DNA of 39,893 nucleotides. Source: Deltaproteobacteria bacterium (GTDB taxonomy: Bacteria; Myxococcota; XYA12-FULL-58-9). A program made the position numbers and the translations under genes. Under the pieces are notes generated by a model that worked only from the letters and a program-made list of their open reading frames with translations, did no database searches and had not been told where the DNA came from. The stretch lies in contig JACRCV010000030.1 of assembly GCA_016218825.1 (NCBI GenBank), positions 1 through 39,893 of the forward strand, given 5' to 3'. This document shows positions 13,718-28,047 of the stretch, piece by piece (within the stretch, counting starts at the first letter, position 1; each line of letters begins with the position of its first letter).

Positions 13718-14590
13718 TCAGGGGGTGCCCGTGGTGGGGGTGGAAACGGAGCCGGCGCGCCGCCGCCGGCGGTCGCGCGCGATCATCAACAGCACGTAGA
13801 GGGCGAGGAGCACCGCGGTCGCGGTGCCGAGCACCCGGATCACCGTCATCACCACCAGGCCGTAGCGTCCGGCCTGCGGGTCGTAGTGGAAACAATAGAG
13901 GAGGACCTTGTCGACGACGTCGCCGATCTTTTCGTCGGCGGCTTCGACCAAAGCCAGGCGCAGGTCGCGCACCGGGTACTCGACGCCGTAGAAGTAGTGC
14001 GAGACCTTCCCCGAAGGCGACAACACCATGATCGCGGTGGCGTGGGCGTATTGATCGATTGCCGGGTCGTAGCGGTAGCGAAAGCCGACGCTGTCGGTGA
14101 GGGCGCGGATCGAGGGCTCGGGGCCGGTGAGGAAGTGCCAGCCGCTTTCGGCGCCGGCGCGACCATACTCGTGCAGGTACTTGTCCTTCTTGGCGCGGGC
14201 GAGGGCCGGGGTCTCCTCGGGGTCGAAGCTGACGGTCAGCACCTCGAATTCCCGCCCGACGTCGAAGCTGAGGGCGCGCAGGCTGCGGAGCGCGCCGTTG
14301 AGCACCAGGGTGCAGAGCATCGGGCACTCGTAGTAGACCAGGGTCAAGATGACCGGCTTGTCGCGGACGTAGTCCTGGAGCCGGACCTCGCGGCCTGCTT
14401 CGTCCTTGAACGGCAGCTCGAGCGGCACTTGGCTCCCGAGCCTCTGGATGATGTCGACGCCCTCGAGCCCGGGCGGCGGTGTGTCAGCCGATTGCGCGAC
14501 TGCCGGTCGGGCGCCGGCGGCGGCGACGACGAGCAGCACCGACAGCGGCAATGATCGAGCGGCGCACAGGCGCCAACGTGTCATCGACAT
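13718..14590 (-). CDS. SCO1/SenC-type copper chaperone with C-terminal membrane anchor
   Basis: A 290-residue thioredoxin-fold protein that delivers copper to the CuA site of subunit II. Residues 1-33 are a signal peptide. The copper motif CPMLC is at 89-93 and the distal histidine is His183 (QYAHATAI). Unlike classical Sco1, which is anchored at its N-terminus, this one has a second membrane segment near the C-terminus (about 252-275) followed by a basic tail, so it is probably tail-anchored facing the periplasm. ATG 14590 overlaps the upstream stop codon (TGATG); ATG 14584 is an alternative. It lies directly before the subunit II gene it serves. Confidence 0.92.
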
Positions 14591-15009
14591 CACGGTCCCC
14601 CCGGGGCGGTGGTCGCTGTGGTCGGCTGTGGCTGCGGGAGGCCGCGCTGCAAGATGAGCGCGGCCGCCCGGGCGACCGGGAGGCGCACCACCCCGGCGCT
14701 TCGGTCGATCCAGCCGTAGGTCGTGGCGCGGCCGCTCTGTGCGGCGCGGTGGGTCGCGAGGTCGGCGGGCTCGGCGTACTGCAGGCGCGGCTCGGGCGGC
14801 AGGCGGCCGCCGGTCGCGAGCGGCGACAGGTGAACGTTGGCGTGGCGCTCGGCGTCGGCGGAGGCTCGTTCGAAGACCCGGAACAACAACAGCATCGCGG
14901 CGAACACCACGACGCACAGGACGAAGAGGCCGCCGAAGAACAACAGCAGCGGCCGCAAGGTCGCGTCCTCGGTCTCGTACGCCCGGCCGTTGTTCTGCGC
15001 CTCAGTCAT
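14590..15009 (-). CDS. small membrane protein of the ACIII-oxidase operon
   Basis: A 139-residue protein with one membrane helix (about 20-43) and a periplasmic or cytoplasmic tail. Residues 98-115 read YGWIDRSAGVVRLPVARA. From memory of similar loci, a small protein with a comparable YGW(V/I)D...G.V.(I/L)P motif often sits between actF and sco; I could not check this. Its role is unknown, and assembly or bridging of Complex III and the oxidase is plausible. It overlaps actF by 4 bases (ATGA) and sco by one base, so it is clearly part of the operon. Confidence 0.8.
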   Translation of the reverse strand: MTEAQNNGRAYETEDATLRPLLLFFGGLFVLCVVVFAAMLLLFRVFERASADAERHANVHLSPLATGGRLPPEPRLQYAEPADLATHRAAQSGRATTYGWIDRSAGVVRLPVARAAALILQRGLPQPQPTTATTAPGGP

Positions 15010-16169
15010 CGTGGGCGGTGCCTCCCGGCGTTGCCGCCTCGAGGGGGGGGGACGCTCCAGGTGCGGGCGAGGGCGCGGCTGAAGACCGCGAGCCACAGGC
15101 CGCCGAGACCACACATCAGCGCCGGGTCCAGCCAGTGGAGGCGGACGGCGTCGGCCTGGAACACCGGCGCGATGATCCAGTAGAGGTCCACCTGCCGCAT
15201 CAACAAGACGAACAGGGCGACCGCCGCCAGGCGACGACCGCGGCGCTTGATGCGCCGCGCCAACAGGACGCTGAAGGGCACCGCGAAGTGGAGCACCACG
15301 AGGATGAGTCCGACGACCTCCCAGCCGTGGTTGAAGCGGTGCAGGTACCAGGGGATCTCCTCGGGCAGGTTGCCGGACCAGATGATGATGAGCTGCGAGA
15401 ACGAGATGTACGCCCACAGCATCACGAACGCCATCAGCAGGTTGCCGAGATCGTGGAAGCGGTCGGCGAGCTCGAAGGCCGCCTCGCCCGCCAGGAGGTA
15501 GAGGGCGACGATCACCAGCGCCAGCCCCGAGAGCCCCTGGCCGACGATGAACAACAAGCCGTAGATCGTCGAGTACCACTGCGGGTCGAGGGACATGCCC
15601 CAGTCGAAGGCGGCGAAGCTCATCGACAACACGTAGAGCGCGAGCCCCGCTGCCGAGACGCGGGCGAGCCAGCGAGCGCGGCGCAGATCGCCGGTGGCGG
15701 CGACGGCCGCGCCCAGCCGCGTGACGAGCGCCGCGAGCGCGATCCAGACGACGAAGTAGAGCGCCGCCCGAGTCAGAAAGCCCGCCGGGCTCAGATAGAC
15801 CTCATGATGCACCGGGGCGTGGTGGGTCTCGGGCACGATCGGCGTCGCCCAGACATAGAGCTGTCGCAGGCCGACCGCGATCGGCACGAACAACAGCGCC
15901 AACAGCGGCAGCGTCCGGGCCGCGGCGGCGAGGATCGGGGCGGTGGCCTTACCCCAGCGGCCGCCGACCAGGTGGTGGAGCATCAACAGCGCCAGCGAGC
16001 CGAGGCCGAGGCCGAGCCAGAAGAGGAAGGCCACGAGGTAGGAGCGCAGGAACTGTTGGTTCGCGACGTAGGCGCCGACGCCGGCGAGCGCGAGGACCGC
16101 GAGGCCGACGACGTGGCTCGTCCTGCTGAGGCGCTGCAGGCGGGCGGCGACGGGCAGGGCGGCGGTCAC
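15006..16169 (-). CDS. actF: Alternative Complex III subunit ActF
   Basis: A 387-residue integral membrane protein of the NrfD-like family with about ten hydrophobic helices. It is the second polytopic quinol-side subunit of Alternative Complex III, paired with ActC. Recognisable family sequences are [20 protein letters not shown], the [20 protein letters not shown] stretch with its conserved acidic pair, and a late [10 protein letters not shown] segment. It starts with GTG 16169 inside the actE stop codon (GTGA) and ends overlapping the next ATG. Confidence 0.93.
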
Positions 16170-16756
16170 GGTGCCTCCCGCTCGAGCGCGGCGCGCTCCG
16201 ACTGCGGTACGTCCTCGAGGCGCGCGTGTTGGCTGAGCTGCAAGACGCGAACATGCGCGGCCACGGCAAGGCGGTCTTCCGGCGCCAAGCGCGAGGCGTA
16301 CGAGTACATCACGCCGAAGCCGCGCGTCATGACGTCGACGAAGTGTTCGAGGGGCGCCTGCCGCAGGCGGTCGCTGTGGTAGGTCGGGGGTTGGCGGAAG
16401 CCGCGCTTGACGACCATCCCCTGGCCGTCGCCGAGGGTCCCGTGGCACGGCGCGCAGAAGATCTCGAAGCGCTCTTGGCCGCGGGCGAGGAGGGCGGCGG
16501 ACAGCGGCGGCGACGCGCGCTCGATAGGTTGGCGGTCGGGGCCGGCGGCGCTCGAGACGTCGGCGGTCGCGGCGGCAAACGGCACCGTGCCGCCGACCGG
16601 CAGGCGGGCGCTCTTGCCGTCGGCGAACAGGCGGGAGGCGGCGAGCGGCTTGTACCGCGGTTGGTCGTGCATGTCCTGGCGGCAGCCGAGAGTCGGCAGC
16701 ACGACGGCGACGGCGCCGCACAGGGCCATCAGCCTATCGGCAGCTCTAGCGCGCAA
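16166..16756 (-). CDS. actE: Alternative Complex III cytochrome c subunit ActE
   Basis: A mono-haem cytochrome c on the periplasmic face of Alternative Complex III, passing electrons towards the oxidase. With a TTG start at 16756 it has 196 residues. Haem motif CAPCH is at 101-105 and a candidate Met ligand lies in GVMYSYA. The N-terminus has arginines, then a hydrophobic stretch and a lipobox-like TLGC with Cys25, followed by [10 protein letters not shown], typical of ActE lipoproteins. I chose TTG because GGAGG lies 9 bases upstream and it supplies the positive charges of a signal peptide; ATG 16729 has neither. The start overlaps the end of actD by 11 bp. Confidence 0.9.
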
Positions 16757-17291
16757 CGTCTTGGACCTCCTCGGCGCCGGCGGTCTCGAGGAAGCGGCGG
16801 GTGGCGGCGGCATCGAACCTCGGGTCGGTCGCCTCGATGCAGAGGAAGAAGCGGTCGGTGCTGGCGCGCTCGAAGCCCGGGGCGTTGAAGATCGGGTGGT
16901 GCGGCTCGGGCAGGCCGTTCCTCCAGATCATGCCGCCGACCGCGACCAACGCCGCGCACAAGATCGTCAGCTCGAAGGTGACCGGGACGAAGGACGGCCA
17001 GGAGAACAGCGGCCGGCCGCCGACGTTCATCGGGTACAGGACGATCGTGGTGTAGGACTGCAAGCCGATGCCGACGAGCATCCCGGTGATGCCGCCGCCG
17101 AGCACGCCCCACGGCAGGCGCGACGGCGGCAGGTCGAGCGCCTCCGCGAGGCCGTGGACCGGCATCGGCGTATAGGCGTCCATCTGCCGATAGCCGGCGG
17201 CGCGCGCCAGGCGCACGACCCGCACCAAGTCGTCGGGGCTCGAGAAGCTCGCCGCGAGGCCGTAGGTGGGGGGTGTCGAAGGTGTCGCCAT
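16746..17291 (-). CDS. actD: Alternative Complex III subunit ActD
   Basis: A 181-residue protein of the DUF3341 family. A cytoplasmic N-terminal part ([20 protein letters not shown], then the conserved YTPMPVHGL) is followed by two membrane helices (about 62-83 and 99-120) and a soluble tail. ActD is a structural membrane subunit without cofactors. It starts two bases after the actC stop codon and ends inside the start of actE. Confidence 0.93.
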
Positions 17292-17293
17292 GT

Positions 17294-18679
<1,386 letters not shown>

Positions 18680-18681
18680 GG

Positions 18682-21594
18682 TCAACCCTTCTCGAGGTTG
18701 GGGTTCGGGTTGTTGACCGCGGCCAGGTAGCGGGTGCGCGGCCGGGTGCCGAGGATGTCGAGGAGCTCGTAGGAGAGCGGGCTCGCCTGCAGGCCGGTGA
18801 CCTCGGCGGCGGCGTCGTTCTGGTTGCCGAAGGTGAACGCGGCCGTCGGGCAGGCCGCCTGACACGCGGTCTGCACCTCGCCGTCCAGGACGCCGCGGCC
18901 CTCCAGCTTCGCGGCGATCCGGGCGAGGTTCAAACGCTGCACGCAGTAGGTGCACTTCTCCATCACGCCGCGGGCGCGGACGGTGACGTTGGGGTTACGC
19001 AGCGCCTTGAGGCTCTCGGTGCCCTGATCGGCGAACCCGAAGAAGTTGAAGCGTCGCACCTTGTACGGACAGTTGTTGGAGCAGTAGCGCGTGCCGACGC
19101 AGCGGTTGTAGACCATCTCGTTCAGGCCTTCGCTGGAGTGCACCGTCGCGCCCACCGGACACACCGGCTCGCAGGGCGCGTTCTCGCAGTGCATGCACAT
19201 CACCGGCTGGAAGCTGACCACCGGGGCGTCGGCCGAGCCCTCGAAGTAGCGGTCGACGCGCAGCCACGCCATCTCCCGGCCCCTGGCGACCTGGTCTTTG
19301 CCGACCACCGGCACGTTGTTCTCCGCCTGGCAGGCGACGACGCAGGCGTTGCAGCCGATGCAGGCCGAGAGGTCGATGCTGAGCGCCCAGGCGTTGCCGT
19401 CGCCCTGCGGCCGCTCGGGGTACAGGCTCTGCGGCGGGCCGGCCTTGTCGTTCAGGGTCTTGGCGAAGCGCGGCGCGGCGCGATACTGCGCGGCCGAGGC
19501 GCGGCGGACGAGGTCTCGCCCCTCCATGCTGTGGTGGCTCTGGGTCGTGGCGATGAGGTGCTGGCGGCCGGTCTTCGTCAGCCGCAGGCCGTCTCTTGTC
19601 CACAGCTGCTCCGCGGTGCGCAGCCGATAGGCGTCGAAGCCGACCTGATCGCCCACCCGTCCCGCGAACCGGCGGCCGAAGCCCAGGTGCACGGTGACAC
19701 AGTCGGGCGCCTGCCCCGGCAGGATCCACACCGGCGCCTCGACGCGGCGCGCCCCGACCTCGAGGGTGACGACGTCGCCGTTCTCGAGGCCGTGGGCGAG
19801 GGCGGTCTGCGGCGCCAAGTGCGCCACGTTGTCCCAGACGATCTTGGTGAGCGGCTTGGCGAGCTCCTGCAGCCAGCCGTTGTTGGCGAAGGTCCCGTCC
19901 TTGATCGACGGGTCGGCGGCGATGAGCAGGGTCAGGCCGGTCGCGGCCGGCGCCAGCGGCGCGAGCGGCGCGGCGGGGCGCGGCAGGGCCGCGATGCTCA
20001 GCGGCGGGGCGGCGCTGCCGGCGACGAAGCCGTCGGCGAGCGCCTTGGCGAAGCGCCGGTCGCTGTCGTCCTTCCACGTCTTCTGCCAGTAGTCCTTGAC
20101 GATGTCGTGGTCGCTGCGGCCCGGAAGGTCGAGCAGCGCCGCCAGGAAGCGGTAGGCGGACTTGCCGTCGTAGAGCGGCGCGATGAGGGGCTGGAGGATG
20201 GTGACGGTGCCGTCAACGGCGCGCGCGTCGCCGAAGCTCTCGAGGGGGTGCGCCGCCGGCACGTGCCAGTGGCAGAGCGCCGAGGTCTCGTCCTCGTAGC
20301 TGCCGAGGCGGGCGCGAAACGCGACCTTCGCGAGGCGCTCGGCGAAGCGCAGATCGGCGGGGGCGGTGTAGACCGGGTTGGCCTCGATGATGAAGAGCTG
20401 ATCGACGAGGCCGGCGTCGATGTCGTGACACAGGGCGGCGAGGGACAGGGCGTCCGCCGCGGCGCGGACCTCCACGGGCTCGGTGTAGACCACGGTCTTG
20501 CCGACGTTCCTGAGGGCGCGATTCATCACGTGGCACAGGGCGTGGATCTCGGGCGGCGCGCTGCTCCCCGCCACCACCAGCGCGGCGCCGGCGTTCTGCA
20601 GCAGATCTTCGGCGACCGCGTCCACCTGCGCTTGGAGCGCGGCGGCGAGCGGCGGCGCCCGGCGGCAGAAAGGCATCGCGGCGGCGCCCGCGGTGGCGGT
20701 CGCCAGCGCCTCGGCGAGCGACGGCATGAGGGCGCGGTGCACGACGAAGCGATGGTCGGCGGCGGCGCCGGTGATCGAGGGCGTGCTCTCGAAGACGTAG
20801 AGGCGGTTGGGGGCGCGGGCGACGCCGCCGTTCTTGCGCCGCAAAGCGAAGTCGCGGGCGTGGCGGGGTGCGGCCGGGCCGTCGGCGAACAGGTCGGCGT
20901 CGAGGCTGACGATGACGCGCGCCAGGTCGAGGTGGTACTGGCTGTCGGCGTCCTGTCCGAGCGCGAGGCGGGCGCCGGCGCGGATCGAGTCAAGGGTGAG
21001 CGGCTCCCATTGATGCCAGCGCGCCGCCGGGTAGCGGGCGAGGAGCTCTTTGATCTGGTCCCCGAGAGTGGGCGAGGTGGTAGCCCCGGTGAGCAGGCGC
21101 ATCCCGGCGCCGCGCCGGAGCTTCTTGACCGCGAGCTCGGGGGCGATGGCGGTGATGAACGCCGGCCACGAGCTCGGCCAACCCGCGTGGCGAACGCTCT
21201 GCGAGCGGTCCGGGTCGTAGAGGTTGAGGATCTCGGCTTGCACCTGGGCGCTGGTGGTGCCGCGGGTCGCCGGGTGCGTCGGGTTGCCCTCGATCTTGGT
21301 GGGGCGACCCTCGTGACTCGTCACCAGCACCCCGGCCGCGTAGCCTTCGACGAGCACCGCGGTGGCGTAGGTCGTCGCCTTGCCGGGCGTCTGGCCCTCC
21401 GGGGCGTCGATGTACGGCACGATCTTCTCGACCGGTTGCCTGGTGCAGGCGGTGACCCCCGCGAGCGCCAACGACGCGCCCATCAGCTCCAGGAACGCCC
21501 GGCGCCCGACGGCGTCCTGGGTCTGCGGCGCGCACTCTGGAAACTCGGCGCCGGCGGGCGGCCGTGGCGGCGGCGGGAAAGGCGGGCGGCTCAT
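18682..21594 (-). CDS. actB: Alternative Complex III iron-sulfur subunit ActB
   Basis: A 970-residue periplasmic subunit. A twin-arginine type signal (GRRAFLELMG, residues 30-39, then TAC at 48-50) suggests Tat export. The N-terminal two thirds resemble molybdopterin oxidoreductases but, as in other ActB proteins, are not expected to bind the cofactor. The C-terminal third (about 741-916) carries the cysteine groups for four Fe-S clusters: CIGCNACVVAC, CMHCENAPCEPVCP, CVGTRYCSNNCP and CTYC...CQAACP. It relays electrons from ActC to the haems of ActA and ActE. ATG 21594 overlaps the actA stop codon (ATGA). Confidence 0.95.
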   Translation of the reverse strand: MSRPPFPPPPRPPAGAEFPECAPQTQDAVGRRAFLELMGASLALAGVTACTRQPVEKIVPYIDAPEGQTPGKATTYATAVLVEGYAAGVLVTSHEGRPTKIEGNPTHPATRGTTSAQVQAEILNLYDPDRSQSVRHAGWPSSWPAFITAIAPELAVKKLRRGAGMRLLTGATTSPTLGDQIKELLARYPAARWHQWEPLTLDSIRAGARLALGQDADSQYHLDLARVIVSLDADLFADGPAAPRHARDFALRRKNGGVARAPNRLYVFESTPSITGAAADHRFVVHRALMPSLAEALATATAGAAAMPFCRRAPPLAAALQAQVDAVAEDLLQNAGAALVVAGSSAPPEIHALCHVMNRALRNVGKTVVYTEPVEVRAAADALSLAALCHDIDAGLVDQLFIIEANPVYTAPADLRFAERLAKVAFRARLGSYEDETSALCHWHVPAAHPLESFGDARAVDGTVTILQPLIAPLYDGKSAYRFLAALLDLPGRSDHDIVKDYWQKTWKDDSDRRFAKALADGFVAGSAAPPLSIAALPRPAAPLAPLAPAATGLTLLIAADPSIKDGTFANNGWLQELAKPLTKIVWDNVAHLAPQTALAHGLENGDVVTLEVGARRVEAPVWILPGQAPDCVTVHLGFGRRFAGRVGDQVGFDAYRLRTAEQLWTRDGLRLTKTGRQHLIATTQSHHSMEGRDLVRRASAAQYRAAPRFAKTLNDKAGPPQSLYPERPQGDGNAWALSIDLSACIGCNACVVACQAENNVPVVGKDQVARGREMAWLRVDRYFEGSADAPVVSFQPVMCMHCENAPCEPVCPVGATVHSSEGLNEMVYNRCVGTRYCSNNCPYKVRRFNFFGFADQGTESLKALRNPNVTVRARGVMEKCTYCVQRLNLARIAAKLEGRGVLDGEVQTACQAACPTAAFTFGNQNDAAAEVTGLQASPLSYELLDILGTRPRTRYLAAVNNPNPNLEKG

Positions 21595-22244
21595 CGGTGA
21601 CACACCGAGCAGTCGGTGAGCTGCTCCTTGCGGATGCCGTAGAGGGCGACCAGCGCGGCGCCTCGGGTCTCTTGGTCGGCGGGTGACTGCCACCCGACGT
21701 CGAACACCGCGGCGCGGGGTCGGACGAAGCGCTCCGGCCGGCGGTGACATTCGAGGCACCACGACATCTGTAGCGAGCTCTCCTGCCACACGAGCGGCAT
21801 CTTGTCGATCGGGCCGTGGCAGGTCGTGCAGCCGATCCCCTGGCGCACGTGGATGCTGTGGTTGAAGTAGACGAAGTCCGGCAGGTCGTGGACCCGCACC
21901 CAGGCGATGCCGCGGTCGGTGGCGAAGCTCCGGCGCAGCGGCTCGAGGAGGCCGGCCTCCGACCACAGCTGGGAGTGGCAGGTCATGCAGGTCTGAACCG
22001 GCGGCAGGCCGGCGAAGGGCGAGGTCTCCACCGAGGTGTGGCAGTAGCGGCAGTCCAGGCCGACGCCGCCGACGTGGTGTTTGTGGCTGAACGGGATCGG
22101 CTGCTCGCGCGCGTCGCCGACGCGCGTCAGCCAGGCCGAGCGCGCCAGGCGATCGACGGCGACCAAGACGAAGACCACCGCCAACGCCGCGCCGACGAGC
22201 GTCGCCCGGGCAAGGGTGTTGGCGCCGGCTGGAAAGAGTTGCAT
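21591..22244 (-). CDS. actA: Alternative Complex III pentahaem cytochrome c ActA
   Basis: First gene of the respiratory operon. The 217-residue protein has an N-terminal membrane anchor (about 12-31) and five CxxCH haem sites: Cys65-His69, Cys86-His90, Cys139-His143, Cys163-His167 and Cys212-His216, the number expected for ActA. It is the periplasmic electron-carrying subunit. The stop codon overlaps actB. A promoter-like sequence and a perfect palindrome lie within 100 bp upstream. Confidence 0.95.
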   Translation of the reverse strand: MQLFPAGANTLARATLVGAALAVVFVLVAVDRLARSAWLTRVGDAREQPIPFSHKHHVGGVGLDCRYCHTSVETSPFAGLPPVQTCMTCHSQLWSEAGLLEPLRRSFATDRGIAWVRVHDLPDFVYFNHSIHVRQGIGCTTCHGPIDKMPLVWQESSLQMSWCLECHRRPERFVRPRAAVFDVGWQSPADQETRGAALVALYGIRKEQLTDCSVCHR

Positions 22245-22289
22245 CGAGCTCGCGGGCCTTCGCCGTTACGGAGCGGCAATCGTCTATCG

Positions 22290-22303
22290 TTACGACGTCG
22301 TAA
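22290..22303. promoter_or_regulatory. 14-bp perfect palindrome, candidate operator of the act-cta operon
   Basis: TTACGACGTCGTAA is identical on both strands. It lies 46 bp upstream of the actA start and, relative to the predicted minus-strand promoter, at about +4 to +17, a typical position for a repressor site. The surrounding bases are less GC-rich than the rest of the window. Confidence 0.5.
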
Positions 22304-22313
22304 GTCGGAGTGA

Positions 22314-22341
22314 AATATGAGCAGTCACGCCGGCTTGTCAA
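22314..22341 (-). promoter_or_regulatory. candidate housekeeping promoter of the act-cta operon
   Basis: On the minus strand a consensus -35 box TTGACA (22341-22336) is followed after 16 bases by CATATT (22319-22314), a 4/6 match to the -10 box. The predicted transcript starts near 22307, giving a leader of about 60 bases before actA. This is the best sigma-70 type promoter I can see in the window. Confidence 0.55.
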
Positions 22342-22362: not shown

Positions 22363-24303
22363 TCAGGCGCCGAGCTCATGGGCGATGCTCGCCGGGTCGC
22401 GGCCGGGTGCCATCGGCGTCAGTCCGAACGCCGCCTCGAGGGCTTCCGCCAACCCCGGCCACGGTCGCTCTTCGGCCAGCAGGATCACCGCCTTCAGGCC
22501 GGCGGCGGGCACCTGGTGCTCCTGGAGGAGCTCGTCGGCCGCGAGCACCAGGCGCTCGGAGAGCTCGGCGCACCACGCGGCCACGGTCAGGGCGTCCACC
22601 GTGATCTCGCCACCACCGGCGAGCACGGTCCACTCGGCGCCGACCGCCGCGCCGACGCGGGCGGCGTGGATCTGCTCCAGGAGCGCCTGGTACAACGGCG
22701 GCGCCTCGGCGACGTCGACGCCCTTTTCGCGCAGCAGGTTGACCGCGGCGCGATCGGTGAGCAGCAGGTCGGCGTCCGTGAGGCTCGCGTCCGGCCGAAA
22801 GCGGGTGCCGACCACGGTCGCCGGACCCTTGACCAACGCCACCTGGGCGTCGGCCGGACCGACCTGGACCGTGAGCCCGAAGTCCGCCGGGGTGAGGGCG
22901 ACGTCGACGCTGGCGAAGAGCGCCGCCGCCTGCGACACGGTCTCGACCGCGTCGACCCCCAACGAGCTGAGGATGTTGGTCACGGTCGGTGCGAGAGCGG
23001 GCGATGCGTGCGGCGGTAGCACCAGGGTCGCGCTCGAGGGCGGCGCGCCGGCGTAGGGCTCGAAGGCCTCGCGGATCGCCGCGGCCAACAGGTCGAGCGC
23101 GTCGATCGGGTTGCCGCCGATCTCGATGACGAGGTTATTCCCGGTGCCGCTGACGTCGAGCTGCAGCCGGCGCGCGATCGCCGCGACGTAGGGCGACGGC
23201 CAACCGCGCCCCGCCCACTGCGGCAGGCCGGAGAGCATCAGGCCCTGGTCGGCGAGGCGCAGCGCGCCCTCGTCCATCGCCAGGCACAGCGGGACGGCGC
23301 GGGTCGTCACCGCGCGTGCGCCGTCGACGAGGCCGAGGTGCAGCGCCGGCCGGCTGAGGTCCAGGATCACGTGCTCGAGGGTCGGGCCCGCAATAGGAGA
23401 CGGTGCGCTGCTGACCGGCTCCTCCTCGGTCTGGATCGCAGGCTCTGCTGCGGCCTCCAGCGCGGCTTCGATGCCCGGCTCGAGCACCTGCTCTGCGGTG
23501 AGTGCCGGCGTGGCGTCGACGGTCGGCTCGACCGTTGTTTCCACCTCGGGCGCGGTCGCCGGTGCCGGCATCTTCGGCTCGACCTCGACCTCGACGTCGA
23601 CCAGCGCGTCGGCCGCGGCGGCGGGGGAGGAGGTTCGCAGCTCCTCCGGCGCCACGTCGAGATCGACCTCGTTCTTGGCGGCGGTCGCCGGCGGCGCCTT
23701 GTCCTCGAGGTCGAGCAGCAGGTCGAGCTCGGCGTCCGCCCGGAGAGCCGCCGACGCCGCTGCCTGCGGGCTCGCGGGTGCGGGGCTCGAGGCGGGGGTG
23801 GGCGCCTTGGCGGCCGAGACCGGCTTGGCGCCCAACAAGGTGTCGAGGGCGTCCGCCTCCTCCGGGTCGAGGTCCAAGAGCGGCCCGGCGACTGCCGGAT
23901 TCGTTGCGGCCACCGGCGCGGTGACGGGCTTTTGGGGGCGGCGCTGCGGCGCGCGGGCGCCGTCACCGTGCTCGGCGACGATCTGGGTGATCAGCTGCTC
24001 CGACTGCGGGTCGAGGTCGATGAACTCGACGCCCATCCCCGGGGGGCGGTCCGGCTCGGCCGCCTCGGCGGGCTTGCGCGCCCAGCGCACCAGCCCGACG
24101 CCGCGCAGCACCCGGGTGCCGTCGGCGAGGGCATACTCGAAGTGGACGCGGGCGCCGACCGGCGCCGGATCGGAGGTGCGGATGAAGATCCCGGTCTTGG
24201 AGATGTTCTGTGCAAACCTCTCCACGAACGCCTTGCGATCCGGATACTTGAGATTGACCTTGATCCGGGTCTCGAGGCGCGCCTGACGTGTGACGGGACC
24301 CAT
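22363..24303 (-). CDS. PilZ domain fused to a degenerate Hsp70-like ATPase domain
   Basis: A 646-residue protein in three parts. Residues 1-110 are a PilZ domain of the myxobacterial TIGR02266 type with intact cyclic-di-GMP motifs, RxxxR at Arg9-Arg13 and NISKTG at 33-38. Residues 111-305 are an acidic, Ala/Pro-rich linker. Residues 308-646 follow the order of a DnaK nucleotide-binding domain: a VILDL strand and VDG turn, DALDLLAAAIREAFEPYAG, then VSQAAALFAS where DnaK has NEPTAAALAYG, and a final AGLKAVILLAEERPWPGLAE block followed by AAFGLTPM. The phosphate-binding sequences are lost: no DLGTTNS (it reads DLSRPAL), no DLGGGTFD, and no VGG. It probably senses cyclic-di-GMP and binds a partner rather than folding proteins. 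It lies 20 bp after the PDZ lipoprotein. ATG 24303 has a weak ribosome site. Confidence 0.75.
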   Translation of the reverse strand: MGPVTRQARLETRIKVNLKYPDRKAFVERFAQNISKTGIFIRTSDPAPVGARVHFEYALADGTRVLRGVGLVRWARKPAEAAEPDRPPGMGVEFIDLDPQSEQLITQIVAEHGDGARAPQRRPQKPVTAPVAATNPAVAGPLLDLDPEEADALDTLLGAKPVSAAKAPTPASSPAPASPQAAASAALRADAELDLLLDLEDKAPPATAAKNEVDLDVAPEELRTSSPAAAADALVDVEVEVEPKMPAPATAPEVETTVEPTVDATPALTAEQVLEPGIEAALEAAAEPAIQTEEEPVSSAPSPIAGPTLEHVILDLSRPALHLGLVDGARAVTTRAVPLCLAMDEGALRLADQGLMLSGLPQWAGRGWPSPYVAAIARRLQLDVSGTGNNLVIEIGGNPIDALDLLAAAIREAFEPYAGAPPSSATLVLPPHASPALAPTVTNILSSLGVDAVETVSQAAALFASVDVALTPADFGLTVQVGPADAQVALVKGPATVVGTRFRPDASLTDADLLLTDRAAVNLLREKGVDVAEAPPLYQALLEQIHAARVGAAVGAEWTVLAGGGEITVDALTVAAWCAELSERLVLAADELLQEHQVPAAGLKAVILLAEERPWPGLAEALEAAFGLTPMAPGRDPASIAHELGA

Positions 24304-24323: not shown

Positions 24324-24974
24324 TCAGTCCTTGAGGGTGTACTGCAGCACGGTTTCCTTCTTCTTGCGCAGGACCTTGACCGACAGCGGGCTGGCGCTTC
24401 TCTTCAGGGCCGCCGCGAGCTCGTCGACCGACGCCACCGGGGTCTCGTTGACCGTAGTGATGACGTCGCCGTTCTTGATGCCGAGCTGGTCGATGAACGA
24501 CTTCGGCTTCACGCCTTTGACCCCGACGCCGGTCGGCTTCGCGGGCGCGAGCTTCGGGCCTTTGCCCGCCGCCGCTTGCACCTGCCGCAGCAGCCAGCCG
24601 CGTCTTACCACGTAGTTGTCGCCGTCCGCCTCGACACCGACCTCCTCGACGCCCAACAGCGCGTCGACGTCGGCCCACGCGTTCTCGGCACCGGCCGAGG
24701 CCGCGGCGGGGGCGGGCTTGGCAGCGGCCTCGGCCACGCCCTTCTGCAGGAAGTCGATCATCTCCTCGATCTTCTTCAGGCGCTCGTTGGTCACCGCCTC
24801 GAAGCCGTCCATGCGGGTGGCGAGCTCTTTGTCGCCGCCCGCCGCGGCCGGGGCGGGCGTCCCCTCCTGGAGCTTCTTGACCTGCTGCTCGATGTTGCTG
24901 ACCCGCTGCTCCGAGACCCCGCCGCAGCCGGCGAGCACCACGCTGACAATGACGCCACAGACCATCCGCAACAT
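24324..24974 (-). CDS. PDZ-domain lipoprotein
   Basis: A 216-residue envelope protein. The signal peptide ends in the lipobox LAGC with Cys17. Residues 22-75 are predicted coiled coil (SEQRVSNIEQQVKKLQ, then further heptads). Residues 140-216 form a PDZ domain with the pattern LGIKNGDVITTVNETPVAS, as in the C-terminal domain of type II secretion protein GspC and other periplasmic adaptors. ATG 24974 has AAGGAGG exactly 6 bases upstream, the strongest ribosome site nearby; the frame is open for ten more codons upstream. It sits between alaS and the PilZ-Hsp70 gene, probably in one transcript. Confidence 0.85.
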   Translation of the reverse strand: MLRMVCGVIVSVVLAGCGGVSEQRVSNIEQQVKKLQEGTPAPAAAGGDKELATRMDGFEAVTNERLKKIEEMIDFLQKGVAEAAAKPAPAAASAGAENAWADVDALLGVEEVGVEADGDNYVVRRGWLLRQVQAAAGKGPKLAPAKPTGVGVKGVKPKSFIDQLGIKNGDVITTVNETPVASVDELAAALKRSASPLSVKVLRKKKETVLQYTLKD

Positions 24975-24985
24975 CAGGAACCTCC

Positions 24986-25021
24986 TTAGAAAGGACGAAG
25001 CCACCGTCGTCGTTCGGCCAT
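24986..25021 (-). other. 11-codon upstream reading frame before the PDZ lipoprotein
   Basis: ATG 25021 opens a reading frame encoding MAERRRWLRPF. Its TAA stop codon overlaps the first bases of the AAGGAGG ribosome site of the PDZ lipoprotein gene. Such overlap can couple or attenuate translation. There is no strong Shine-Dalgarno sequence before it, so it may be chance. Confidence 0.25.
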
Positions 25022-25062: not shown

Positions 25063-28047
25063 TTACGGCGGGGTGGCGAGGATCTCCGCGAGCCGGTCGA
25101 AGGCGACCGCGAGGCCGTCGGGCTTGTTGCCGCCGGCCGAGGCCATCTCGGGGCGCCCGCCGCCTTTGCCGCCGATGTGGGGCGCGAGCTTCGACACCAA
25201 CGCCCCCGCCTGCAGCCGCGTTGTCAGGTCCTTGCTGACGGTCACCAAGAGGTTCGCCTTGTCGTCGACCTTGCTGCCGAGGCAGACGATGCCCGACCCG
25301 AGGCGGTCCTTGAGCTTGTCGGCGAGCTCCCGCAGCGCTTTGGCGTCGAGGCCGTCGATGCGACCGGAGAGCAGCCGCACGTCGCCGACGGTCACGACCC
25401 CGGCCAGGAGGTCGGTGGCGGCGTCCTTCAGCTTGCCCTGTCTGAGCTGATCCAAGGCCCGGAGGTTGTCGCGGTTGGCGGTGACGAGCCGCGCGAACAA
25501 CGCCAGCAGGCCGGAGGCGTCGTCCTTCTGCATCCGGGTCGCGAGCGCCTCGATGTCGGTCGCCCGGGCGTTGGTCATCTGCACCAACATCTGCCAGAGC
25601 GCGCACAGCTTGCGGGCGTCGGCGTCGCCGTCCTGGGGCTGGAGCGCCGGTGGCCTTGCGTCGCTCCTCGCGACCTCGACGATCTTGCCGCCCGCAGCCT
25701 TGAGCGCCGCCACCTGCTCGTCGTACTCGCGGACGGTCTTCGCGACCGCCTGCAGGATCGGCTGGTCGTCCCCGGCCGCCGCCGGCTCGCTGCCGTTGAT
25801 GATTCGGGCGGCGTGCACCAGGGCGTCGCGGGCCCGGGTCGCACGGGCGCGGGCGCTCGCGCCGACCTCGGCCTCGATGCGGCGCACCCCGGCGGCCACG
25901 GCCTCCTCACGGGTGATGAGCACCAGGTCGATGTCTCGGGTCCGGCGGGCGTGGGTGCCGCCGCAGAGCTCGACCGACGCGCCCAGCGTCACCATCCGCA
26001 CCCGGTCGCCGTACTTCTCGCCGAACAGCGCGATGGCGCCGCGCTCTTTCGCCTCGTCGAACGACAGCACCTCGGTCTTCATCGGCGCGTCTTCGCGCAC
26101 CCTGCGGTTGGCCTCCTCTTCGACCTTCGCCAGGTCGGCGGGGGTCGGCGCCTCGAAGTGGGAGTAGTCGAAGCGCAGGTGGTGGGGGTCGACGAGCGAG
26201 CCGGCCTGCTTGACGTGGTCGCCGAGCACCTGGCGGAGCGCGGCGTGCAGCAGGTGGGTCGCGGAGTGGTGGGCGCGGGTCTGCTTGCGGACCTCGGGGT
26301 CATAGCCCGCCCAGACCTCGTCGCCGACCGCGACCGCGCCCTGGCGCAATCGGCCGCGGCAGACGCTCAGGCCCTCCACCGGCCGGGTGGTCTTCACGAC
26401 CTCGAGCGTGAGCCCGCTGTCGCCCTCGATGATGCCGGCGTCGCCGACTTGGCCGCCCGACTCTCCGTAGAACGGCGTCGGGTCGAGCACGACCTCGATC
26501 TCGCCGCGGTCGGCGCGCGCGACCGTGGCGCCGTTTTGGATCAGGCCGACGACCTTGCAGCGGGCCTCGAGGTAGCGAGCGCCGCCGACGGTGCTCTCGC
26601 GCCAGCGGCCGGGGCGGGAGGCGAGGGGCTCGTCTTCGTGCGGATAGCCGAGGAACTCGATCTCTTTGTGGGCGCCGGCCAGGGTCTTGTAGACCGTGGC
26701 GACCGCGGCGTCGCCGACCTCGGAGCCGCGGCTGCGCTCTTGTTGCGCCGTCATGCTGGCGTCGAAGCCGGCCTCGTCGATGTGAAAGCCGCGCTCCTTG
26801 GCGATGACGTCGGTCAGGTCCTTCGGGAAGCCGTAGGTGTCGTAGAGCTTGAACACCGCCGCTCCGGACAGGATCTTGGTCCGCGCGGCCGCCGGGCTCG
26901 CGAGCTCGTCTTCGAGGATGCGCAAGCCGGTGTCGAGGGTGCGGCGAAACGCCTTCTCCTCGGTGGTCGTGACCTTGTGGATGAGCGAGCGCGACTCGAC
27001 GAGCTCGGGGAACGCCGCGCCCATGGTGTCGACGACCACGTCGCAGATCCGATGCAAGAAGAGATCGTCGAAGCCCAGGCGCTTGCCGTGGCGGATGGCG
27101 CGCCGCATGATGCGCCGCATCACGTAGCCGCGGCCGTCGTTCGCCGGTTGCAGGCCGTCGGCGGTCAAGAACGCGGCGGCGCGGGCGTGGTCGGCGATGA
27201 CTCGCATCGAGACCTCGTCCTCGGAGTCGCCGCCTTTGTAGGGCTTGTGGATCAGGTCGCTCGTACTCCGGATCAGGGGCGCGAAGAGGTCGGAGTCGTA
27301 GTTGGAGCGCTTGCCTTGCAGGATCGCCGACAGGCGCTCGAGGCCCATGCCGGTGTCGACCGACGGCTTGGGGAGCGGCAGCATCGCGCCGCCCGGCTTG
27401 CGCTCGAACTGCATGAAGACGTTGTTCCAGATCTCGACGACGCGGCCGTTCTCGAAGTCTGCCGGCGACGGGTTGCCGCCCTCGCCCTGGTCGTAGTGGA
27501 TCTCGGTGCACGGGCCGCACGGGCCGGTGTCGCCCATCGCCCAGAAGTTGTCCTTCATCCCCTTGTCGAGGATGCGGTCGTCGTTGAGGCCCGAGATCTT
27601 CTTCCACAGCGCCCGCGCCTCGGTGTCGGCGCTGACGCCGCCCTCGCCGCCGAAGATCGTCACCCACAGGCGCTTGGGGTCGAGCGCGACCTCTTTGCGG
27701 ATCAAGGTCCAGGCCAGGTGGATGGCCTCTTCTTTGAAGTAGTCGCCGAACGAGAAGTTGCCGAGCATCTCGAAGAAGGTGTGGTGGCGCGCGGTGCGGC
27801 CGACCTCCTCGAGGTCGTTGTGCTTGCCGGAGACCCGCATGCACTTCTGCGACGAGCAGGCGCGCTTGTAGGGCCTGGTCTCGGCGCCGACGAACACGTC
27901 CTTGAACTGCACCATGCCGGCGTTGGTGAACATCAACGTCGGGTCGTTCTGCGGCATCAAGGCGCTCGACTTGACCACGGTGTGGCCGTTCCGAGCGAAG
28001 TAGTCCAAGAAGAGCTGCCGAACCTGGGCGGCGCCGGTGTTTTCCAT
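25063..28047 (-). CDS. alaS: alanyl-tRNA synthetase
   Basis: Charges tRNA-Ala with alanine and hydrolyses mischarged Ser or Gly. The catalytic domain starts at once (MENTGAAQVRQLFLDYF) with motif 1 and 2 sequences such as TNAGMVQFK and RVSGKHNDL. The editing domain has HSATH (zinc His pair) and ELCGGTHA. The C-terminal C-Ala domain ends in HIGGKGGGRPEMASAGG. At 994 residues it is over 100 longer than the usual 870-890. The extra length lies in the helical linker between editing and C-Ala domains (roughly residues 800-880, around DADARKLCALWQML and TNRDNLRALDQ-like sequence). AGG lies 7 bases before ATG 28047. Confidence 0.97.
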   Translation of the reverse strand: MENTGAAQVRQLFLDYFARNGHTVVKSSALMPQNDPTLMFTNAGMVQFKDVFVGAETRPYKRACSSQKCMRVSGKHNDLEEVGRTARHHTFFEMLGNFSFGDYFKEEAIHLAWTLIRKEVALDPKRLWVTIFGGEGGVSADTEARALWKKISGLNDDRILDKGMKDNFWAMGDTGPCGPCTEIHYDQGEGGNPSPADFENGRVVEIWNNVFMQFERKPGGAMLPLPKPSVDTGMGLERLSAILQGKRSNYDSDLFAPLIRSTSDLIHKPYKGGDSEDEVSMRVIADHARAAAFLTADGLQPANDGRGYVMRRIMRRAIRHGKRLGFDDLFLHRICDVVVDTMGAAFPELVESRSLIHKVTTTEEKAFRRTLDTGLRILEDELASPAAARTKILSGAAVFKLYDTYGFPKDLTDVIAKERGFHIDEAGFDASMTAQQERSRGSEVGDAAVATVYKTLAGAHKEIEFLGYPHEDEPLASRPGRWRESTVGGARYLEARCKVVGLIQNGATVARADRGEIEVVLDPTPFYGESGGQVGDAGIIEGDSGLTLEVVKTTRPVEGLSVCRGRLRQGAVAVGDEVWAGYDPEVRKQTRAHHSATHLLHAALRQVLGDHVKQAGSLVDPHHLRFDYSHFEAPTPADLAKVEEEANRRVREDAPMKTEVLSFDEAKERGAIALFGEKYGDRVRMVTLGASVELCGGTHARRTRDIDLVLITREEAVAAGVRRIEAEVGASARARATRARDALVHAARIINGSEPAAAGDDQPILQAVAKTVREYDEQVAALKAAGGKIVEVARSDARPPALQPQDGDADARKLCALWQMLVQMTNARATDIEALATRMQKDDASGLLALFARLVTANRDNLRALDQLRQGKLKDAATDLLAGVVTVGDVRLLSGRIDGLDAKALRELADKLKDRLGSGIVCLGSKVDDKANLLVTVSKDLTTRLQAGALVSKLAPHIGGKGGGRPEMASAGGNKPDGLAVAFDRLAEILATPP

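Follow-up and report, generated by a model that had tools for sequence, protein, structure and literature searches.

A PilZ domain fused to an Hsp70 nucleotide-binding fold that lacks ATP-binding motifs, encoded beside alaS in uncultured Myxococcota

Results

Gene and neighborhood

The window, meaning the whole stretch of 39,893 nucleotides analyzed here, comes from an uncultured relative of the myxobacteria. All features given by position below lie on its minus strand. The gene under study occupies positions 22363-24303 (ATG at 24303, TGA at 22363-22365) and encodes a protein of 646 residues that, by its open reading frame, domain matches and orthologues, runs from a PilZ domain through an acidic linker to a pseudo-Hsp70 nucleotide-binding domain (NBD). 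GC content at the third codon position is 0.92 over the whole frame and 0.94 over the C-terminal half. The initial annotation had described a PilZ and pseudo-Hsp70 fusion at these coordinates; the frame is real, and both parts were recovered, the PilZ domain by Pfam and TIGR02266 and the Hsp70 NBD by profile and structure.

Immediately upstream lies a lipoprotein gene with a GspC-type PDZ domain (24324-25004; GspC_delta match 8.1e-14), which adjoins the gene in five of the seven orthologous loci; farther upstream lies alaS (25063-28047), whose position is conserved across the lineage. The lipoprotein carries the PDZ domain without the remainder of GspC. We counted a gene as alaS-linked when it follows alaS either immediately or with a single lipoprotein gene intervening, as the window's gene does. 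The order alaS, PDZ lipoprotein, PilZ-pseudo-Hsp70 is found in the window and in genomes G001, G002 and G192. In G191 the PDZ gene and the PilZ-pseudo-Hsp70 gene stay together and alaS is elsewhere on the contig, and in G193 and G190 alaS is immediately upstream and no PDZ gene is present there. On the other side of the window's gene, the minus-strand genes at 14590-22341 resemble by eye an alternative complex III operon, with cytochrome c, Fe-S/molybdopterin-like and NrfD-like membrane proteins. In G193 (L070) and G190 (L101) the next gene is, also by eye, a large NAD-glutamate-dehydrogenase-like frame of about 1600 aa.

The PilZ domain and its c-di-GMP motif

Residues 9-112 (23968-24279) form a PilZ domain of the TIGR02266 type, which matches PF07238 at 7.4e-10 (39.5 bits, curated cut-off 22.5) and TIGR02266 at 8.6e-24 (83.5 bits, curated cut-off 68.7). 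The full-length model gives it strands and a C-terminal helix with a pLDDT of about 85-90. Since the window's genome has 57 PilZ matches, the domain is not unusual there.

Both halves of the c-di-GMP motif that had been noted, RxxxR and NISKTG, are present in the window's protein, as RLETR at residues 9-13 (24265-24279) and NISKTG at residues 33-38 (24190-24207). R9 is invariant in the seven orthologues. The second arginine position holds R in the window's protein (P0001) and in G001, K in G002 and G193, N in G191, T in G192 and E in G190, and the NxSxxG half is retained in six of the seven, having been lost in G193. Because R13 is replaced elsewhere and G193 also lacks NxSxxG, the complete motif is seen in the window's genus alone (two of seven orthologues). 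The second-messenger switch first proposed for the protein is therefore not supported as a general property: a c-di-GMP switch is plausible from the motif in the window's genus and unproven across the wider family. Either that genus alone has the switch, or the PilZ domain mostly works as a binding module.

The linker

The two domains are joined by about 190 residues (119-306; 23386-23949) that are rich in Ala and Pro, acidic (18% D/E, 5% K/R) and predicted to be disordered, with pLDDT mostly below 50. The exception in the full-length model is one helix at residues 147-157, which coincides with a short conserved motif, LDPEEADALDTLL, at residues 145-157 (23833-23871). In the orthologue alignment this motif follows roughly the pattern L..EE..aLD.LL, and E149, L153 and L157 are invariant in six sequences.

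The C-terminal half has the fold of an Hsp70 nucleotide-binding domain

Searches with the single sequence of the C-terminal half, including Pfam, returned no Hsp70 match. A weak Pfam E3_binding match (0.0095, below the cut-off) lies inside the Hsp70 fold and was dismissed as chance. Kinship with Hsp70 became detectable once the window's sequence had been combined with five orthologues of its order into a six-sequence profile. Compared with real DnaKs by hhalign, this profile scored a probability of 98.8% (E 5.9e-17), and against the PDB its best 60 matches were all members of the Hsp70 family, with DnaK at the top (E 7.9e-11).

An AlphaFold2 model of the C-terminal half (pLDDT 87, pTM 0.84) agreed with the profile. 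Each of the best 50 Foldseek matches in the PDB was an Hsp70 NBD, a longer Hsp70 or a complex of these (top 2.9e-18), and VIA-align superposed residues 4-340 of the model on residues 3-381 of DnaK in 1dkg_D (Z 24.5, 4.2 Å, 335 residues). From this superposition, the NBD is complete and the chain stops at its end, so that residues 307-646 (22366-23385) constitute a full-length pseudo-Hsp70 NBD with no substrate-binding domain (SBD) behind it. The window's protein stops at the position aligned with DnaK residue 381, and the seven orthologues stop at about the same place. The initial annotation had read this half as following the DnaK NBD and had proposed structure prediction as a check; both the profile and the predicted fold bear it out. 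That the SBD is missing altogether is a point it did not make.

Loss of the nucleotide-binding motifs

We aligned the C-terminal half with DnaK and with CsdK-like and alaS-linked PilZ-DnaKs, and the DLGTTNS, DLGGGTFD and VGG sequences reported missing are indeed absent. At the former phosphate-1 loop (23338-23367) ILDLSRPALH replaces GIDLGTTNS, IGIDLGTTNS having become VILDLSRPAL. The K70 block SIKRFMGR reads GLPQWAGR and connect-1 NEPTAAA reads SQAAALF. The former phosphate-2 loop (22837-22869) has VQVGPADAQVA in place of YDFGGGTFDIS, and in the adenosine loop LVGGQTRMP has become LLAEERPWP, where EERPWPGL (22450-22473) replaces GQTRMPMI and forms a family-specific EE..WPGL motif. The loss is common to all seven orthologues, while positional counterparts in Myxococcaceae retain most motifs.

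The changes extend to the presumed co-chaperone surfaces. The residues around DnaK G32, which we take to be the GrpE contact, are deleted, and the surroundings of R167, N170 and E171, presumably the site of J-domain docking and coupling, are replaced. That the GrpE-loop and J-domain regions are replaced or deleted in every one of the seven orthologues argues against an ordinary co-chaperone cycle. We conclude that the C-terminal domain is an Hsp70 NBD fold that lacks both the ATP-holding loops and an SBD.

Orthologues and selection

The full-length dead, SBD-less form occurs in seven of the eight genomes of the window's order, spread over five families: G000, G001 and G002 belong to one family, and G190, G191, G192 and G193 to one family each. 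It was not found in the eighth genome, G194. Those bearers that have public names are uncultured Myxococcota. Identity between orthologues is low (23-28%). W615 and L618 are invariant in all seven, within EE..WPGL or a close variant, as is D315, the aspartate of the first strand. At the former phosphate-2 loop ETR is common to four orthologues, with ESR and ELR in two more; its absence from the window's own protein, which has ADAQ there, counts against the explanation that we favor below.

G191 also holds a stand-alone pseudo-NBD frame of 391 aa without a PilZ domain on a separate contig (L073:83-1255, G191:C129), which is either a duplication or comes from a mixed-in strain. The two G191 copies are 74% identical with a dN/dS of about 0.08, a rough ratio from the sole usable pair, in which dS is 2.1 and thus near saturation and one copy lacks PilZ. 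Rough as this one ratio is, the pseudo-Hsp70 is kept under purifying selection and is not randomly decaying. Because EE..WPGL is conserved and dN/dS is about 0.08 in the two-copy genome, the window's gene product is probably a working protein.

A graded series at the alaS locus

Myxococcaceae and some other families carry a PilZ-DnaK with both NBD and SBD after alaS; most other families examined have none there. Several of these genes sit behind a lipoprotein gene different from the PDZ one. The alaS-linked PilZ-DnaKs (G104, G121, G083, G063, G105, G062, G152, G166 and G020) share with the window's protein the place, the TIGR02266-type PilZ domain, the linker and the Hsp70 fold, but they largely retain the NBD, keep SBD-beta and have a PilZ domain without RxxxR.

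Their NBD motifs form a series. They are intact or nearly so in G166 and G152, carry E171A- and T199G-type changes in G104, G121 and G063, and are heavily lost together with a retained SBD in G020; the loss is total and the SBD gone in the window's order. The Myxococcaceae loci L091, L092 and L095 encode alaS-linked PilZ-DnaKs with the E171A- and T199G-type changes, and the linker at L092 exceeds 1000 residues. In E. coli DnaK such changes impair ATP hydrolysis, and by analogy the ATPase activity of the alaS-linked Myxococcus PilZ-DnaKs may already be weak. The G020 gene (L108:2745-7472, after alaS) is a 1576-residue PilZ-DnaK frame with DLGGRW, DLDAHDLT and AGAASRYP at the motif positions (HSP70 7.1e-40). 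Judging by these motifs, G020 is a second, less complete loss of an Hsp70 active site at the alaS locus.

In a PilZ tree from which long branches were left out, the alaS-linked PilZ domains formed one weak group (88/71); with all rows included the grouping does not resolve because of the long branches. The position that these genes share, together with the weak group formed by their PilZ domains, makes common descent of the alaS-linked lineage likely, though not proven. We read the series as states in living relatives and not as a dated path.

Discussion

Proposed role and alternatives

Our preferred explanation, which we hold to be probable, is that a member of the alaS-linked PilZ-Hsp70 lineage turned into a pseudo-ATPase that serves as a binding scaffold or adaptor, with the PilZ ligand altering what the pseudo-Hsp70 end does. 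The Hsp70 part would have been converted so that it no longer runs an ATP-driven chaperone cycle, and the protein would act in the cytoplasm, where partners would most likely dock at the rebuilt nucleotide cleft, with its EE..WPGL motif, and at the linker helix. The PilZ ligand, possibly c-di-GMP in the window's genus, would alter what the pseudo-Hsp70 end holds. This c-di-GMP switch is, going by the motifs, the weakest step of the mechanism. The narrower proposal of a c-di-GMP-gated, ATP-independent pseudo-Hsp70, its cleft rebuilt for protein docking and its ATP switch replaced by the second-messenger switch of a tethered PilZ domain, is possible but doubtful. The non-ATPase scaffold of the initial annotation is thus the reading that we judge most likely, given the loss of the ATP-binding sequences from a domain of Hsp70 fold.

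The dead protein might instead be a regulatory subunit or a decoy for the intact PilZ-DnaKs of the same cell, pairing with a real NBD, much as Hsp110 and Hsp70 NBDs pair, or competing for clients, for instance PilZ proteins resembling CdbS. Hsp110 NBDs do pair with Hsp70, but Hsp110 retains ATP binding and its SBD; the protein studied here has lost the regions at which co-chaperones dock. Intact PilZ-DnaK paralogues do stand beside the dead form in G000, G001, G002 and G192, and G191 has a further PilZ-Hsp70 match; in addition, the DnaK part of CsdK2 binds a PilZ protein (PMC10313047). The intact paralogue is, however, encoded elsewhere in the genome, and we consider this role unlikely. It is improbable that new residues let the cleft go on binding a nucleotide or some other small ligand: D315 is invariant and the fold complete, but the phosphate, connect and adenosine loops have all been replaced.

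An assembly platform like GspL or PilM, partnered with the upstream lipoprotein, has some appeal, since that neighbor matches GspC_delta in its PDZ domain and lies next to the gene in five loci, and type II secretion is known to use scaffolds with an actin fold. Yet a signal sequence and a lipobox, recognized by eye, suggest that the lipoprotein lies outside the cytoplasm, and with no membrane segment evident in the PilZ-pseudo-Hsp70 the two would not come into contact; the PDZ gene is missing from the locus in G193 and G190, and no other secretion genes were seen alongside. We regard such a platform as very improbable. Least probable of all is a C-terminal domain in decay, on its way to being lost, with function left to the PilZ part alone. 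Decay would fit the low identity among orthologues and the graded way in which the lineage loses first its motifs and then its SBD, but the frame is open at full length in seven genomes of five families, the fold is confidently predicted, new invariant residues have appeared and dN/dS is about 0.08. The scaffold or adaptor remains the explanation that we favor.

To our knowledge, pseudo-enzymes are well studied among kinases and hardly at all in Hsp70. One locus in living relatives holds an intact PilZ-DnaK, E171A/T199G forms, an altered form that still bears the SBD and a dead, shortened form, so that what the Hsp70 fold can do without ATP becomes directly testable.

Comparison with known systems

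In type II secretion and type IV pili, respectively, GspL and PilM provide actin-like domains that serve as scaffolds. The likeness to them lies in the idea alone, an ATPase fold serving as a scaffold; there is no sequence or locus sign of kinship, and the partners differ. With the DnaK/Hsp70 family the window's protein shares the fold of the entire NBD (Z 24.5), but it lacks the phosphate-1, phosphate-2, connect-1 and adenosine motifs, the interdomain linker and the SBD.

The initial annotation knew of no described system of this kind, but PilZ-DnaK fusions with intact NBD and SBD have been published. CsdK1 (Mxan_3778) and CsdK2 (Mxan_6605) of Myxococcus xanthus are PilZ-DnaK chaperones that stabilize CdbS and have a conserved NBD, interdomain linker and SBD; CsdK2 contacts a PilZ protein through its DnaK part, and its own PilZ arginine is dispensable for contact with CdbS (PMC10313047). 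Besides that paper and reviews mentioning it, we found nothing on PilZ-Hsp70 in the open literature, and no paper there on an alaS-linked PilZ-DnaK or a pseudo-Hsp70 of such a kind. Three or more PilZ-Hsp70 genes occur in G137, a genome of Myxococcus type to judge from its 24 PilZ matches and its grouping. We dropped the idea that the alaS-linked gene of G137, whose PilZ domain falls below the Pfam threshold, is CsdK1, for CsdK1 is fitted by another gene, with a frame of 784 aa and a PilZ match that begins at position 28, and CsdK2 by one with a frame of 1176 aa. In Myxococcus the alaS-linked gene apparently encodes a third PilZ-DnaK, distinct from both CsdK1 and CsdK2. The window's genome itself also has an intact PilZ-DnaK (G000:C40, HSP70 6.9e-133).

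The window's protein thus resembles CsdK1 and CsdK2 in its N-terminal PilZ domain, linker and C-terminal Hsp70-type domain, and in coming from Myxococcota. It departs from their layout of PilZ, linker, NBD and SBD in that the SBD is absent, and where their NBD is conserved its own is dead. The PilZ-Hsp70 architecture is already known; the dead, SBD-less, alaS-linked form is new.
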